This document shows, piece by piece, positions 9,001-16,378 of a stretch of DNA of 33,306 nt. Below the pieces are notes generated by a model. The model had not been told where the DNA came from, made no database searches, and was given only the letters and a program-made list of their open reading frames with translations. This DNA is from Actinomycetes bacterium. GTDB taxonomy: Bacteria > Actinomycetota > Actinomycetes > Nanopelagicales > Nanopelagicaceae. Both the position numbers and the translations under genes were made by a program. Positions within the stretch are counted from its first letter, which is position 1; every line of letters begins with the position of its first letter. The stretch covers positions 1 to 33,306 of the forward strand of contig JANXZF010000102.1 in the NCBI GenBank assembly GCA_025355665.1. The letters run 5' to 3'.

Positions 9001-11445
9001 ATGACGGCTCCAGTTGGTCTTTCTACTCAGGAGGCCGCTGTCAGGTTGGCGAAGAACGGGCCGAACATACTCGATTCTCGTTCGCGCAACTCGGCATGGA
9101 AGTTGCTGTTGCGACAATTCGAGAGTCCTATAATCTTGATTCTCTTTGCTGCGACCATCATTTCGATGTTCCTGGGTGAGGTCACCGACGGAATTATCAT
9201 CCTCGCGATCATTGTCCCCAGCGGATTGCTTGGTTTTTGGCAGGAGCATCGTGCGAGTAAGACCATGGAATCACTTCTCAATCAGATTCACATTCATGTG
9301 GAGGTAATCCGAGATGGGAAAGAAATAACGATTCCGATCGAGGAAGTAGTCGTTGACGATCTGGTCGCTCTTCGCGCAGGGGATTTGGTTCCTGCTGATA
9401 TCCACGTCGTTCAAGCCAGTGGCCTAATGGTCGATGAATCAGCCATGACGGGTGAGTCCTTTCCGAGAGAAAAGGCTGTTGGGGAAATCGATGCGGCGAA
9501 GCCGTTGGCGCAAAGGGGATCGGAACTCTTCTATGGAACCCATGTAGTCAGTGGAGTAGGTCAAGGCATCGTCATCAAAACAGGTCGCGATACTGAATTC
9601 GGCGAAATCGCCCAATCACTCAATTCGCGCGATGTTACAACGGGATTCGAGCGCGGAACGACCGCTTTTGGAATGTTGCTCCTCAAGGCCATGATCTTCC
9701 TAGTTTCAGCACTTTTTATTGTCAATATGTTTTTACACCGCCCGATAATCGATTCGCTGCTCTTCTCCCTTGCGTTGGCAGTAGGCCTCACACCTCAATT
9801 GCTCCCGGTGATCATTTCAGTCTCTCTTGCGGCTGGGGCAAAGCGCATGGCCCAAAAGCAAGTATTGGTGAAGCGCCTTGACGCGATTGAAGACTTCGGC
9901 CTCATGACCGCCTTGTGTACTGACAAAACAGGAACGATCACAGCCGGAGCGATTCGACTCGATGGTGCACTTGACCCAACTGGGGAGGTAAATGAGCGCG
10001 TGCTCGAGTTGGCCTTCCTCAATGCGAAATCCCAAAAAGGGTTCATCAATCCTTTGGATGCTGCAATAGTGAGTTCGGTAGGTACCAAATTCACCGAGGC
10101 TAAGGTTCTTGGTGAGATTCCGTACGATTTTGAGAGACGACGTCTAACCGTGCTCGTTGACGATCACGGTCCCCTGATGAATACAAAAGGAGCTTTTGCG
10201 AGCATTCTGGGTATTTGCACGAACGTTCGCGTTGGAAAAGAACTCAAACCTTTGGCTCCGATGATGACAGAACTTCAGAATCTATTCCAAGAAATCAGCA
10301 GCCAAGGAAATCGTGTATTAGGAATTGCCACAAAGTCAGTGACCGCCCAGGCGAGAGTCAGCATTGATGACGAGAAGGAAATGGTTTTTGAGGGCATATT
10401 GGTCTTCCATGATCCGCTTAAACCTGACGCTAAGGAGGCAATCGAAGAATTAGCAATGCTAGGAATCGATCTCTACATGATTACCGGTGACAACCGCTTT
10501 GCGGCAAAATCAATAGCATCTCAAGTCGGGCTGCCATCTGAGGTCGTCCTGGTGGGCGCCGACATATCCGCTTTGGATAATGATGCCCTCAACGAGAAAG
10601 TTAAAAGGTGTCGCGTATTTGCCGAGGTAGATCCAATTCAGAAGGAAAGAATCATTCTGGCCGTAAGGGCCTCGGGAGCAACGGTTGGCTATTTCGGCGA
10701 TGGGATAAATGACGCGGCAGCACTGCACGCGGCCGACGTGGGGATTTCTGTTGACACTGCCGTCGATGTCGCTAAAAACGCTGCCTCAATAGTTCTTCTG
10801 GATAAAGACCTGCGAGTTATCGCACAGGGCGTTTCCCTTGGTCGAACCACATTCGTCAACACGATGAAATATGTGAGGGTAGGGGTGAGCGCCGCATTTG
10901 GAAATGTAGTGTCTATGGCGATAGCCGACATATTTCTTCCATTTCTACCTATGCTCCCAATGCAAATCCTGCTCCTTAACTTTATGACTGATTTTCCTGC
11001 CATCGCCATATCGGGGGATCAAGTTGACTCTGAGGACATCATTAAACCCAGGGCCTGGGATATAAAGGCAATTCGAAAATTCATGATCTACTTCGGACTC
11101 TTGAGTTCAGTATTCGACATTGTCACTTTCATTGTTTTGAGGCGAGGATTCCATGCCCCAGATACGCTCTTTCGTAGTGGTTGGTTTATCGAGTCCACTC
11201 TGACCGAATTAGCGGTCATGATGGTTCTTAGAACTCACCGGCGATTTTGGCGGAGCAAGCCCGGTAAGGGTCTGTTCTGGTCAAGTCTGATTTTGGCGGT
11301 GACAACTATCGCAATTCCCTTCACCGGTTTCGGCAGTGTGATTGGCCTTGCGGTCCCTCCACTTAATTTGCTGATTATCCTTTTTGGTCTTATTGGCATC
11401 TACATCGTCTTGAACGAGATCGCGAAGAAATACTGGATGAAGTAG
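9001..11445 (+). CDS. P3B-type cation-transporting ATPase (MgtA-like)
   Basis: This is a P-type ATPase, most likely importing Mg2+. In order it shows an N-terminal cation-ATPase segment, the first membrane pair, and the actuator domain with MTGES. The fourth helix reads VGLTPQLLPV, close to the LTPEMLP of MgtA-type pumps. Next come the phosphorylated Asp308 in DKTGT, the nucleotide domain, the hinge GDGIND (566-571) and six C-terminal helices. The 814-aa length is shorter than E. coli MgtA (about 900), mainly at the N-terminus. Gln replaces the Glu of the TPE motif, so ion specificity is less certain. Two small membrane-protein genes follow without a gap, which suggests one transcript. The start lacks a ribosome site but has a -10 at leaderless distance. 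Confidence 0.9.
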   Translation: MTAPVGLSTQEAAVRLAKNGPNILDSRSRNSAWKLLLRQFESPIILILFAATIISMFLGEVTDGIIILAIIVPSGLLGFWQEHRASKTMESLLNQIHIHVEVIRDGKEITIPIEEVVVDDLVALRAGDLVPADIHVVQASGLMVDESAMTGESFPREKAVGEIDAAKPLAQRGSELFYGTHVVSGVGQGIVIKTGRDTEFGEIAQSLNSRDVTTGFERGTTAFGMLLLKAMIFLVSALFIVNMFLHRPIIDSLLFSLALAVGLTPQLLPVIISVSLAAGAKRMAQKQVLVKRLDAIEDFGLMTALCTDKTGTITAGAIRLDGALDPTGEVNERVLELAFLNAKSQKGFINPLDAAIVSSVGTKFTEAKVLGEIPYDFERRRLTVLVDDHGPLMNTKGAFASILGICTNVRVGKELKPLAPMMTELQNLFQEISSQGNRVLGIATKSVTAQARVSIDDEKEMVFEGILVFHDPLKPDAKEAIEELAMLGIDLYMITGDNRFAAKSIASQVGLPSEVVLVGADISALDNDALNEKVKRCRVFAEVDPIQKERIILAVRASGATVGYFGDGINDAAALHAADVGISVDTAVDVAKNAASIVLLDKDLRVIAQGVSLGRTTFVNTMKYVRVGVSAAFGNVVSMAIADIFLPFLPMLPMQILLLNFMTDFPAIAISGDQVDSEDIIKPRAWDIKAIRKFMIYFGLLSSVFDIVTFIVLRRGFHAPDTLFRSGWFIESTLTELAVMMVLRTHRRFWRSKPGKGLFWSSLILAVTTIAIPFTGFGSVIGLAVPPLNLLIILFGLIGIYIVLNEIAKKYWMK

Positions 11446-12742: not shown

Positions 12743-13621
12743 ATGTCAGCCGCCAATATCGCACTAATAGTCCTTCTGGTGATCGCGATCGCCATCGTCG
12801 TGGGAGCTATCAAGATTATTCCGCAAGCACGTGCGGGTATTGTTGAAAGATTGGGCAAGTACCACCGAACCCTTGGACCTGGGCTCAATCTAATAATTCC
12901 CGGGATTGATCGACTTCGTCCACTCGTTGATCTACGTGAAAAGGTCGTCTCATTCCCACCTCAACCGGTAATTACCGAGGATAACTTGGTGGTAAATATC
13001 GACACCGTTATCTATTTCCAGGTTACGAATGCGAAATCCGCGACTTATGAAATTGAGAATTACATTCAAGGCATAGAACAGTTGGTTGTCACCACACTTC
13101 GAAACTCAGTCGGCGGGCTTGACCTCGAAAAGGCATTGACATCGCGTGACCATATCAACGCAATTCTTCGCGGTGTTTTGGATGAGGCAACGAGCAAGTG
13201 GGGCGTTCGCGTAAATCGAGTTGAAATTAAGGCTATTGAGCCACCCCCTAGCGTCCAAGAGTCGATGGAAAAACAAATGAGGGCCGATCGCGATAAACGA
13301 GCTGCGATCCTTACTGCCGAAGGAGAGAAGCAGAGCCAAATTCTAAAGGCCGAGGGAGCGCGGGCGTCAGACATTCTTCGCGCCGAAGGTGAAGCCCAAG
13401 CTGCAGTTATTCGCGCCGAAGGTGAAGCCACTGCAATTGCAAAGGTATTTAAGGCGATTCACGATGGCAATGCCGACGACAAGGTATTGGCATACAAATA
13501 TCTTGAACAGTTGTCTGTAATCGCAAACGGAACCTCAAGCAAGGTATGGGTGATTCCTGCCGAGTTGTCAGGAACGGTGAGCACAATCGCGCGCGCTTTC
13601 AAAGAGTCGGGTAAGGGATAA
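12743..13621 (+). CDS. SPFH/Band 7 family protein (paraslipin/QmcA type)
   Basis: This is a membrane-anchored scaffold of the stomatin/prohibitin superfamily. An N-terminal helix (about residues 5-25) precedes the Band 7 domain: IIPQARAGIVERLGKYHRTL, GLNLIIPGIDRL, VVSFPPQPVITEDN, and the conserved VRVNRVEIKAIEPP. It ends in a charged coiled coil rich in Ala-Glu-Gly repeats (about residues 180-235), used for oligomerisation. The 292-aa length is typical. The start has AAGGAG 7 nt upstream, and nfeD lies 10 bp before. The two proteins probably form one complex affecting membrane order or protein turnover. Confidence 0.93.
   Translation: MSAANIALIVLLVIAIAIVVGAIKIIPQARAGIVERLGKYHRTLGPGLNLIIPGIDRLRPLVDLREKVVSFPPQPVITEDNLVVNIDTVIYFQVTNAKSATYEIENYIQGIEQLVVTTLRNSVGGLDLEKALTSRDHINAILRGVLDEATSKWGVRVNRVEIKAIEPPPSVQESMEKQMRADRDKRAAILTAEGEKQSQILKAEGARASDILRAEGEAQAAVIRAEGEATAIAKVFKAIHDGNADDKVLAYKYLEQLSVIANGTSSKVWVIPAELSGTVSTIARAFKESGKG
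13378..13429 (+). repeat. Direct repeat inside the SPFH coiled coil
   Basis: A 19-nt sequence (TCGCGCCGAAGGTGAAGCC) occurs identically at 13378-13396 and 13411-13429. The 33-bp period encodes an 11-residue repeat (RAEGEAxxAVI). Less exact copies (KAEGEKQSQIL, KAEGARASDIL) precede it. Eleven-residue repeats are normal in SPFH coiled coils, but the exact nucleotide identity suggests recent duplication or gene conversion. Confidence 0.7.
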
Positions 13622-13632
13622 CTTGGCGATCC

Positions 13633-14199
13633 ATGGAGAATCTCCTGTCGAAATTTGATCGATACCTCTACCTCTGGTTACTCGTCGTTTTTCTTTTTGG
13701 TCTTTCGGTCATGACTTCTTACGTCCTTGTTCAGCAGGAGGGAAGGTCGTCAATAAATATTCCTTTGATTCAGATGGCGCAATCTGTTGAGGCCGATCTC
13801 AAATCCGGCGCTAGCACCTCTGCAATTTTAAAAGCACAGGAAATTGACCTCTCATTTGATCAAAGCCCTTTCATCACCTTGTACGCGCTAGATAAGAAGG
13901 TTATTGGAAGTAGCCAACATTTCCACGGGACTACGTTGACCCTGCCCGACGGCGTGCTGGTCAATGCCAGAGAAAATGGGGAGGTTCGCCTCACATGGCA
14001 GCCACGACGCAACTTGCGGTTTGCAACCGTTACCGACTACCTGCCCAACTTCGGGTATGTCTCCACCGCCCAATCGCTTGAAGAAACTGAGGCGCGTGCA
14101 ACGAGGGCAAAGTGGATTGGCTTTAGCGCAATCGGTCTTGGTTCTGTGGTCTCGGGAATCGTGATGTGGTACCTGGCGAAACGTCGAAAAGGGAACTAG
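13633..14199 (+). CDS. Membrane protein with an extracytoplasmic sensor-like domain
   Basis: The 188-aa protein has a membrane helix at about residues 14-33, roughly 120 residues outside the membrane, a second helix at about 160-181, and a short basic tail (KRRKGN). The outer part reads like the sensor region of a histidine kinase (FITLYALDKKVIGSS, VRLTWQPRRNLRFATV, YVSTAQSLEETEAR), but the protein stops after the second helix. No HAMP, kinase or cyclase domain follows. Similar short proteins exist in other bacteria without known function. It lies 11 bp after the SPFH gene and before the kdpDE relic. Either it is a stand-alone signal-binding protein or its effector has been lost. Confidence 0.75.
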   Translation: MENLLSKFDRYLYLWLLVVFLFGLSVMTSYVLVQQEGRSSINIPLIQMAQSVEADLKSGASTSAILKAQEIDLSFDQSPFITLYALDKKVIGSSQHFHGTTLTLPDGVLVNARENGEVRLTWQPRRNLRFATVTDYLPNFGYVSTAQSLEETEARATRAKWIGFSAIGLGSVVSGIVMWYLAKRRKGN

Positions 14200-14308
14200 A
14201 TCGAGGTCGTATGTAATCCGTTAGGAATCAGGGTCGTCGACGCCAACGCTGACACTTCCTGCCTAATATCTTCGAATAGGCGAGTGGTGGAGGAATGATG
14301 GTAGATCT

Positions 14309-14374
14309 GATGTTGGTGGTCTTTCAGTTGTGGTGTCGATCCCCATCAAACTTGAAGAAAATGCGAAGCGCTAA
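14309..14374 (+). pseudogene. Remnant of kdpD (C-terminal end only)
   Basis: The frame DVGGLSVVVSIPIKLEENAKR ending at TAA 14372-14374 matches the way KdpD sensor kinases end (a glycine-rich turn, then a final strand such as GLTVVVSLP). It sits 5 bp before a degraded kdpE, as kdpD does. Upstream, the only further similarity is a few residues in the same frame (NDGRS, 14294-14308), and stop codons appear in all frames between 14200 and 14300. The rest of the roughly 850-residue kinase is absent. The identification rests on position and this short similarity. Confidence 0.55.
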
Positions 14375-14379
14375 TCTCA

Positions 14380-14941
14380 ATGCTAAAGGTGCTAGTTTTT
14401 GATGACGAGCCGCAGATCATTCGTGCTCTGGGAATAAACACCCAAGCTCGTGGATTTCTGATGATTGCCGCAGCCACTGGAAAAGAAGGTCTTGAGATGG
14501 CGGCTCAACCCAAACCAGATGTTGTTGTCGTAGATTTAGGATTATCGGATATTGGGGGAGTGGAGGTAGTAAAGAACCTACGGTGATGGAGCAATATGAC
14601 GATACTGGTTCCTTCTGGGAGGTCTGACTCAGTGCAAAAAAGTTGAGGCCCTCAATAATGGGGCAGGCGACTACGTTACAAGACTTTTCAACATCGAAGA
14701 ATTTTTTGCAAGAATACGGGCGGTTTCAATGCGAATTAGCCAAGTGGAGTATCCAAAAGTTCAAATTGGCTTTTGGCAAGTTGGCCTTGCAGATAGAGTG
14801 ATTTGCAATCCAGCGACCGTAGAACAAGTTCGGCTTACGCCCTTCGGAGGGCAAATACTAGAGCCCGATCCTTCGGCACCCAAGCATTTCTTGACTGAGA
14901 CTGGCTTGGGTTACCGATTTCTACCAAGTTCGCTTTTGTAA
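14380..14941 (+). pseudogene. Degraded kdpE (KdpE-type response regulator)
   Basis: The first 68 codons read like KdpE: VLVFDDEPQIIRAL, then KPDVVVVDLGLSDIGGVEV with the phospho-acceptor Asp. An in-frame TGA at 14584-14586 stands where the family has Gly before Trp (probably GGA to TGA). After it the similarity continues (WSNMTILV). A run of six A's near 14637-14641 then shifts the frame by one, and in the new frame the text resumes as VEALNNGAGDYVT and FFARIRA. At VRLTP the match jumps to LEPDPSAPKHFLTETGLGYRF, the normal C-terminus. About 45 residues of the winged-helix domain, including the recognition helix, are therefore deleted. With three independent lesions this is a pseudogene. Confidence 0.9.
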
Positions 14942-14945
14942 TCGG

Positions 14946-15674
14946 CTACTTTGTTTTCCTTTTTAGCGTGAGTGCTCCAGCCGCAAGTAGTCCGAATAGG
15001 AAGAGCGCCAGTATCAGGAAATCGCGGGTCACCGATCCTTGTCCGGCGACCACCTTTTGAGTCGCATCAACAGCGTAAGTCAGGGGCAAGTAATCAGAAA
15101 TAATGCGCAAAATTGAGGGCATGCTCCCTCGGGGAACAAGCAAGCCGCTAAGGAGTAATTGCGGAAAAAGCACTGCAGGAAGAAATTGAACGGCCTGGAA
15201 TTCCGTTTTCGCAAAAGAACTAACAAAAATTCCGATCGCCATTCCGAGAAGTGCGTCGAGTATTGCGACGACGATGAGCATGAGTTGGGATCCAGCGATC
15301 TTCAGGCCGAGTGGACCAAGGGCGACAGATGAAACGATTGTGGCCTGGATCAATGCGGCGATACCGAATGCTTTTGCATAACCCAAAATGAATTCGAGTT
15401 TTGTAATTGGAAGGATCAGCAAGCGCTCGAGTGTGCCTGAAGTGCGCTCACGCAATGTTCCGACGCTGGTGATCAGGAACATGACCAACATAGGGAAGAT
15501 TCCAAGCAATGAGGCGGCGACGCGTTGAAAGACGATGGGCTGATTTTGGTAGACGTACTTAAGGATCGTCATTAAAAGAACTGGAGCCAGAATCATCAAC
15601 GCAATTGTTCGCGGATCGTGACGCAATTGCGAAAGTATTCTGCGGGCCGTACCCCAGATACGCCGGATGCTCAT
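14946..15674 (-). CDS. ABC-2 type transporter permease
   Basis: This is the membrane subunit of an ABC exporter: 242 residues with six hydrophobic segments and the ABC-2 pattern (TSVGTLRERTSGTLERLLILPI after the second helix, then LLLSGLLVPRGSMPSILRIISDYLPLTYAV). The start ATG at 15674 overlaps the ATPase stop as ATGA; a longer in-frame extension upstream would lie inside the ATPase gene and is unlikely. It is co-transcribed with the ATPase at 15671-16378. Daunorubicin/multidrug-type exporters have this organisation, but the substrate is unknown. It ends 5 bp from the kdpE relic. Confidence 0.9.
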   Translation of the reverse strand: MSIRRIWGTARRILSQLRHDPRTIALMILAPVLLMTILKYVYQNQPIVFQRVAASLLGIFPMLVMFLITSVGTLRERTSGTLERLLILPITKLEFILGYAKAFGIAALIQATIVSSVALGPLGLKIAGSQLMLIVVAILDALLGMAIGIFVSSFAKTEFQAVQFLPAVLFPQLLLSGLLVPRGSMPSILRIISDYLPLTYAVDATQKVVAGQGSVTRDFLILALFLFGLLAAGALTLKRKTK

Positions 15675-16378
15675 ATTTTCTCCACCAAAGAGATAAAGAC
15701 CGCTTCCATATCGTCTGTTTTTGTCTGCTCCTTGAGTTCTTGTGGCGTTCCTCCCGCGAGTATTCGGCCATCGCGGAGAAGGTATAGGGAATCGCAACGA
15801 TCTGCCTCGTCCATAACGTGACTGCTTATGAGAAGGGTCTTGCCTTGATCTGCCAGTTTATGGAAGAGGTTCCATAGATCCCTTCGTAGTACCGGATCTA
15901 GTCCAACGGTTGGTTCGTCCAGAATCAAAAGTTCGGGTTTACCTAGCAGCGCGGTTGCAAGTGCCAACCGGGCTTTTTCTCCACCAGACAGGGAAGAAGC
16001 GAGTTGTTTCTGATTCTTAGTGAGATCCACTAATTCAAGAACTTCGTGTACCGAAATTTCAGATTGACCCAAAATCCGCGCAAAATAACGTAGGTTCTCA
16101 AGACATGTTAAATCCGTGTAGATGCTCGCGCTCTGGGTGAAATAGCCGATGCGTGTTCTCAAATTTTTCGAGCCTGCGGTCCGTCCAAATACTGTGATGC
16201 TGCCTGACTGACTGGCTTGGACACCGACAATGCTTCGCATGATCGTTGTCTTTCCGCTGCCACTTGGCCCGAGTAGTCCCACGATCTTTCCACGATCAAT
16301 GTACATCGTGAGATTGGGGATGATCGTTTTTCCGTCTCGGATAATCCTCAGATCGGAAATACGAACGCCTTCTGGCAT
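15671..16378 (-). CDS. ABC transporter ATP-binding protein
   Basis: This is the nucleotide-binding subunit of the ABC-2 exporter encoded directly downstream. It has Walker A GPSGSGKT (37-44), a Q-loop region YFTQSASIY, the signature LSGGE (130-134), Walker B LLILDE (150-155) with the D-loop VGLDP, and the switch histidine in ISSHVMDEAD. It is 235 aa, a single domain. The ATG at 16378 has no ribosome site; the hexamer TAGCCT ends 6 nt upstream, so the mRNA is probably leaderless. Its stop overlaps the permease start by 4 bp. Confidence 0.93.
   Translation of the reverse strand: MPEGVRISDLRIIRDGKTIIPNLTMYIDRGKIVGLLGPSGSGKTTIMRSIVGVQASQSGSITVFGRTAGSKNLRTRIGYFTQSASIYTDLTCLENLRYFARILGQSEISVHEVLELVDLTKNQKQLASSLSGGEKARLALATALLGKPELLILDEPTVGLDPVLRRDLWNLFHKLADQGKTLLISSHVMDEADRCDSLYLLRDGRILAGGTPQELKEQTKTDDMEAVFISLVEKI

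Follow-up and report, generated by a model that had tools for sequence, protein, structure and literature searches.

The stretch of DNA analysed here (the window) is the first 33,306 bases of contig C98 in the draft genome of a freshwater-type actinobacterium, which amounts to 1.87 Mb in 138 contigs. Within it, a pseudogene spans positions 14315-14941, where the 3' end of a kdpD gene is followed by a broken kdpE. The features of this locus, from left to right, are:

12743-13621, plus strand: SPFH/Band 7 gene, the conserved left flank
13633-14199, plus strand: 188-aa ORF, the intact upstream neighbour, hydrophobic at its ends and matched by no Pfam or NCBIfam family
14315-14374, plus strand: kdpD 3' remnant (about 19 codons and a stop, GGLSVVVSIP...), identified by a KdpD-tail profile, a shuffle test and its spacing to kdpE
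14380-14941, plus strand: kdpE pseudogene, identified by tblastn with intact KdpE and by a receiver that is 58-60% identical to those of its closest canonical KdpEs
14584-14586, plus strand: in-frame TGA stop in kdpE
14636-14641, plus strand: six-A run with a one-base frame shift in kdpE
14843-14857, plus strand: winged-helix deletion junction (FGGQI), placed by alignment to intact KdpE
14946-15674, minus strand: ABC-2 permease gene, the conserved, converging right flank; its ORF was listed as 14946-15797, and the start was set by the G112 homologue, which begins at residues matching MSIRR

When used as a tblastn query, the intact KdpE of a family-mate (L011:10873-11559) matches positions 14380-14631 with 58% identity, passing through the in-frame TGA, and resumes in another frame up to position 14923, for a combined E of 5e-32 over the two frames. 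The receiver domain of the relic is 52-60% identical to canonical KdpE, compared to 35-38% for other regulators of the genus, and in a phylogenetic tree the relic is placed within the KdpE clade with a support of 100/100. The original prediction, made from the sequence letters, described a kdpE remnant with three lesions, and tblastn and alignment together recover all three. The TGA had been read as replacing a Gly codon; the stop is indeed present, and the replacement of Gly is plausible but unproven, since the aligned residue is Gly in two class-level KdpEs (L118 and L131) but Thr in two family-mates. The frame shift had been ascribed to an extra A, and counting one A of the 14636-14641 run as extra does restore the KdpE alignment. 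Finally, the relic passes from LTP straight to LEPDPSAP, so that relative to the L011 KdpE a net of about 43 winged-helix residues is missing, close to the 45 or so proposed earlier.

Changes at near-invariant receiver residues had been overlooked by the earlier reader. Alignment of the relic receiver with 31 intact canonical KdpEs shows substitutions at position 78 (L to P), at 96 (D to G) and in the Lys-Pro pair, at 101 (K to R) and 102 (P to L); the first Asp of the GADDY motif is among the changed residues. While the N-terminal acidic Asp pair and the phosphorylated Asp are retained, the conserved Lys-Pro is thereby lost. Counting the invariant columns at which the relic deviates was considered as a way to prove decay, and dropped, because the intact KdpE of family-mates G077 and G189 departs from the class consensus equally often (11-12 of 58 columns) while keeping its catalytic Lys; the argument is instead carried by the specific catalytic changes. 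With no open frame covering both receiver and winged helix, and without the conserved receiver Lys, the relic yields no working response regulator.

The kdpD tail is short, which is why its match in an HMM search is by itself non-significant (E of about 0.2-0.5). A position profile of the KdpD tail, however, gives it a score that was equalled in none of 2000 dinucleotide shuffles. Furthermore, the relic kdpE directly follows it, with 65 nt from the kdpD tail to the kdpE start as compared to 61 nt in the intact G077 operon. As such, the survival of the last 20 or so kdpD codons, as put forward earlier, holds up at about 19 codons and a stop; an HMM search upstream of position 14315 found no longer kdpD remnant, and we therefore limit the claim to these codons.

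As the original prediction also stated, the kdpFABC pump genes do not lie beside the relic: the 33-kb window holds no kdpA, no kdpC and no further pieces of kdpD, and its sole significant kdpB-like match is an intact cation P-type ATPase (9001-11445). KdpA was found neither in this genome nor in 20 other genomes of the genus, and the same holds, among the matches listed, for the KdpD N-terminal domain and full-length KdpD. The intact kdp operon that was to be sought in sister genomes was thus not found in the genus, but it does exist in the wider family, where two of the 201 genomes (G077 and G189) have a full KdpD above cut-off and kdp genes intact through kdpE. In G077, this KdpD sits in a kdp operon (contig C1, L011) whose neighbourhood includes none of the genes flanking the relic. 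In that operon, kdpA (L011:4143-5743) is split into two overlapping ORFs close to an ambiguous base, which probably reflects an error of assembly. The relic is missing from the sister genomes. A search for relatives sharing the same short pieces, a possibility raised earlier, found its DNA in none of the 200 other family genomes, apart from 50 bp that match kdpE in G077 and two weak hits of short length. A DNA search of plasmid records gave no match to the relic either.

The junction between the SPFH and ABC-2 genes differs among relatives. In the closest sister, G148, about 45 bases separate the two matches, with neither the 188-aa ORF nor the relic in between, and the junction is also empty in G003 and G094. 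In G112 it holds a homologue of the 188-aa ORF only, and in G070, G106 and G088 a different, unrelated 218-aa gene with CxxC motifs on the minus strand. At least four states of the junction (window 13621-14946; L224, L225, L226, L114, L013, L014, L228) are thus seen: empty, 188-aa ORF only, ORF plus kdp relic, and the 218-aa gene. As it is empty or differently filled across relatives, the junction appears to be a spot at which genes turn over. Beyond this genome, the 188-aa ORF has homologues in just three members of the family (G112, G136 and G033), and in at least G136 the homologue lies in another neighbourhood. The named relatives of the SPFH protein belong mostly to actinobacterial genomes from aquatic metagenomes, Candidatus Planktophila and Nanopelagicaceae among them.

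Taken together, we are highly confident that what survives here is the 3' end of a canonical kdp(FABC)DE operon, decayed and without function. Such an operon would once have occupied the convergent junction between the SPFH gene with its 188-aa neighbour and the ABC-2 exporter pair, probably having arrived there by horizontal gain. Judging from the remaining pieces, most of it would then have been deleted, leaving kdpD with some 20 codons and kdpE with a stop, a frame shift, part of its DNA-binding domain missing and no Lys-Pro. Because the occurrence of kdp is patchy, we favour horizontal gain followed by decay, although the tree does not settle between gain and inheritance. The rival to the gain step alone, which we regard as possible though clearly the less probable course, is that the ancestor of the family had kdp and that nearly all its descendants lost it, leaving the relic as a last trace. 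In keeping with this, the relic joins the KdpE of G077 and G189 at 94/77 when these are included in the tree. However, the relic is one of the longest branches, this join was flagged as possible long-branch attraction, and in a tree without those two rows its position is unresolved. The rarity of KdpD above cut-off in the family, and the different gene neighbourhood of the family-mate operon, likewise argue against vertical descent.

If the operon was indeed gained and then decayed, when did the decay take place? One stop in 185 codons translates to neutral change of about 0.06 substitutions per site, and to about 0.31 at the most, an estimate that hangs on that single stop. Synonymous divergence between this genome (G000) and G148 is 0.6 or more for the genes measured, so that decay after the split from G148 is compatible with these numbers. 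The earlier suggestion that the loss took place quite recently agrees with the stop count, but sits poorly with the long branch of the relic, and the age is therefore poorly constrained and a recent date weakly supported.

Could the break be an assembly or sequencing artefact, in a strain that has intact kdpDE here? The draft state of the assembly would allow for it, and two lesions, each of a single base, could be errors. Nevertheless, we consider it very improbable as a whole explanation, because it does not account for the missense changes at invariant sites including the Lys-Pro motif, the loss of about 43 residues, or the absence of nearly all of kdpD inside a 33-kb contig whose genes on either side of the relic are intact, and the genome has no KdpA anywhere.

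The same genome also carries an intact relative of KdpDE on another contig, C18:

L109:6956-11467: intact, overlapping three-gene cluster of a short KdpD, a KdpE and a KimA

Both this KdpE and the relic are KdpE-clade regulators of one genome, and the relic might as such be a decayed duplicate of the KimA-linked pair. We reject this, at odds as slim as those of an artefact: the relic is only 40% identical to the KimA-linked copy, compared to the 58-60% for its nearest canonical KdpEs, and the KimA-linked copies form a clade of their own (100/100, and 100/99 in a second tree) with the relic outside. Least credible of all is that the fragment was kept for a function, e.g. as a regulatory element or as a small peptide resembling a receiver; although the phosphorylated Asp and the acidic pair persist, the frame is broken, the Lys-Pro is lost and hardly any matching DNA is found in the family. 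A decayed end of a canonical operon, then, is what we take the segment to be, and in itself such a relic is ordinary.

The more interesting by-product is the KdpDE-KimA cluster. Its kinase is a 479-aa protein with DUF4118, HisKA and HATPase domains, lacking a KdpD or USP domain; its regulator has KdpE as best NCBIfam match, below the cut-off; and its 781-aa transporter matches the solved KimA structure 6s3k (E = 3e-92). The same trio is present in G148, G112, G094, G070, G033 and G006 (L110, L111, L112, L113, L217, L219), making seven family genomes with this one, and a comparison of this genome with G148 shows purifying selection on each of the three (omega 0.02-0.06). A second KimA is encoded on contig C59, and KimA matches occur in 168 of the 201 genomes of the family. 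Of the kdpABC and Trk/Ktr genes proposed earlier for a genome search, KdpA and TrkH were looked for and are absent, and Kup is absent from this genome as well. Potassium uptake probably rests on KimA-type transporters. Around the two kimA copies, no c-di-AMP riboswitch reaches the Rfam gathering score. In genus g7 (L222:6097-9202, L223:2423-5547), KimA adjoins a KdpE-like regulator that is more distantly related, and a short DUF4118 protein of about 250 aa lies nearby, which hints at another version of the KimA-linked system.

From gene order, we infer that the KdpD/KdpE pair on C18 may regulate KimA. Whether, in these actinobacteria, a shortened KdpD and a KdpE paralogue were re-wired to control KimA instead of KdpFABC, with a canonical kdp operon being gained and lost again along the way, we regard as an even bet. 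In either case, the broader claim of the original prediction, that the lineage has lost high-affinity potassium control, is unsupported, because the same genome has both the intact cluster and a second KimA. What is lost from this locus is the canonical kdp operon, not potassium-responsive regulation as such, and potassium control has probably not been lost. The locus thereby illustrates how, in aquatic actinobacteria with small genomes, the operon for a potassium pump was probably gained, and then lost, at a single variable junction, and cautions that loss of kdp does not equal loss of KdpDE-type control where an intact KdpDE-like pair adjoins KimA. If KimA is the main importer of the family, this would be a testable case of a two-component system switching its target transporter.

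How does this compare with known systems? A related situation has been described for Bacillus thuringiensis BMB171, which has a defective KdpDE, with a truncated kdpD resembling the KdpD N-terminal domain and no kdpE found, and a kdpFABC that is kept under a c-di-AMP riboswitch (PMC6488665). Both cases have a remnant of the kdp regulator and potassium handled by other regulation. However, the pump is kept there, whereas here it is gone and a 3' kdpD tail and kdpE remain. KimA homologues and KdpDE are both mentioned in Streptomyces (PMC10117811); a link between KdpDE and KimA is not reported in the literature searched, which was represented mainly by titles and abstracts. Compared to the KdpDE of intact kdpFABCDE operons (G077 C1, L011), the relic shares the order and spacing of kdpD and kdpE, a receiver of about 58-60% identity and the C-terminal motif LEPxPxxPxxLTExGxGYRF, but has a stop, a frame shift and deletions, with kdpFABC and most of kdpD gone. 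The C18 cluster resembles the relic system in its KdpE-clade regulator and in the KdpD-type DUF4118 membrane domain of its kinase. It differs in being intact, in having no N-terminal KdpD and USP domains, in a receiver with only 40% identity to that of the relic, and in having a KimA-type transporter in place of KdpFABC.
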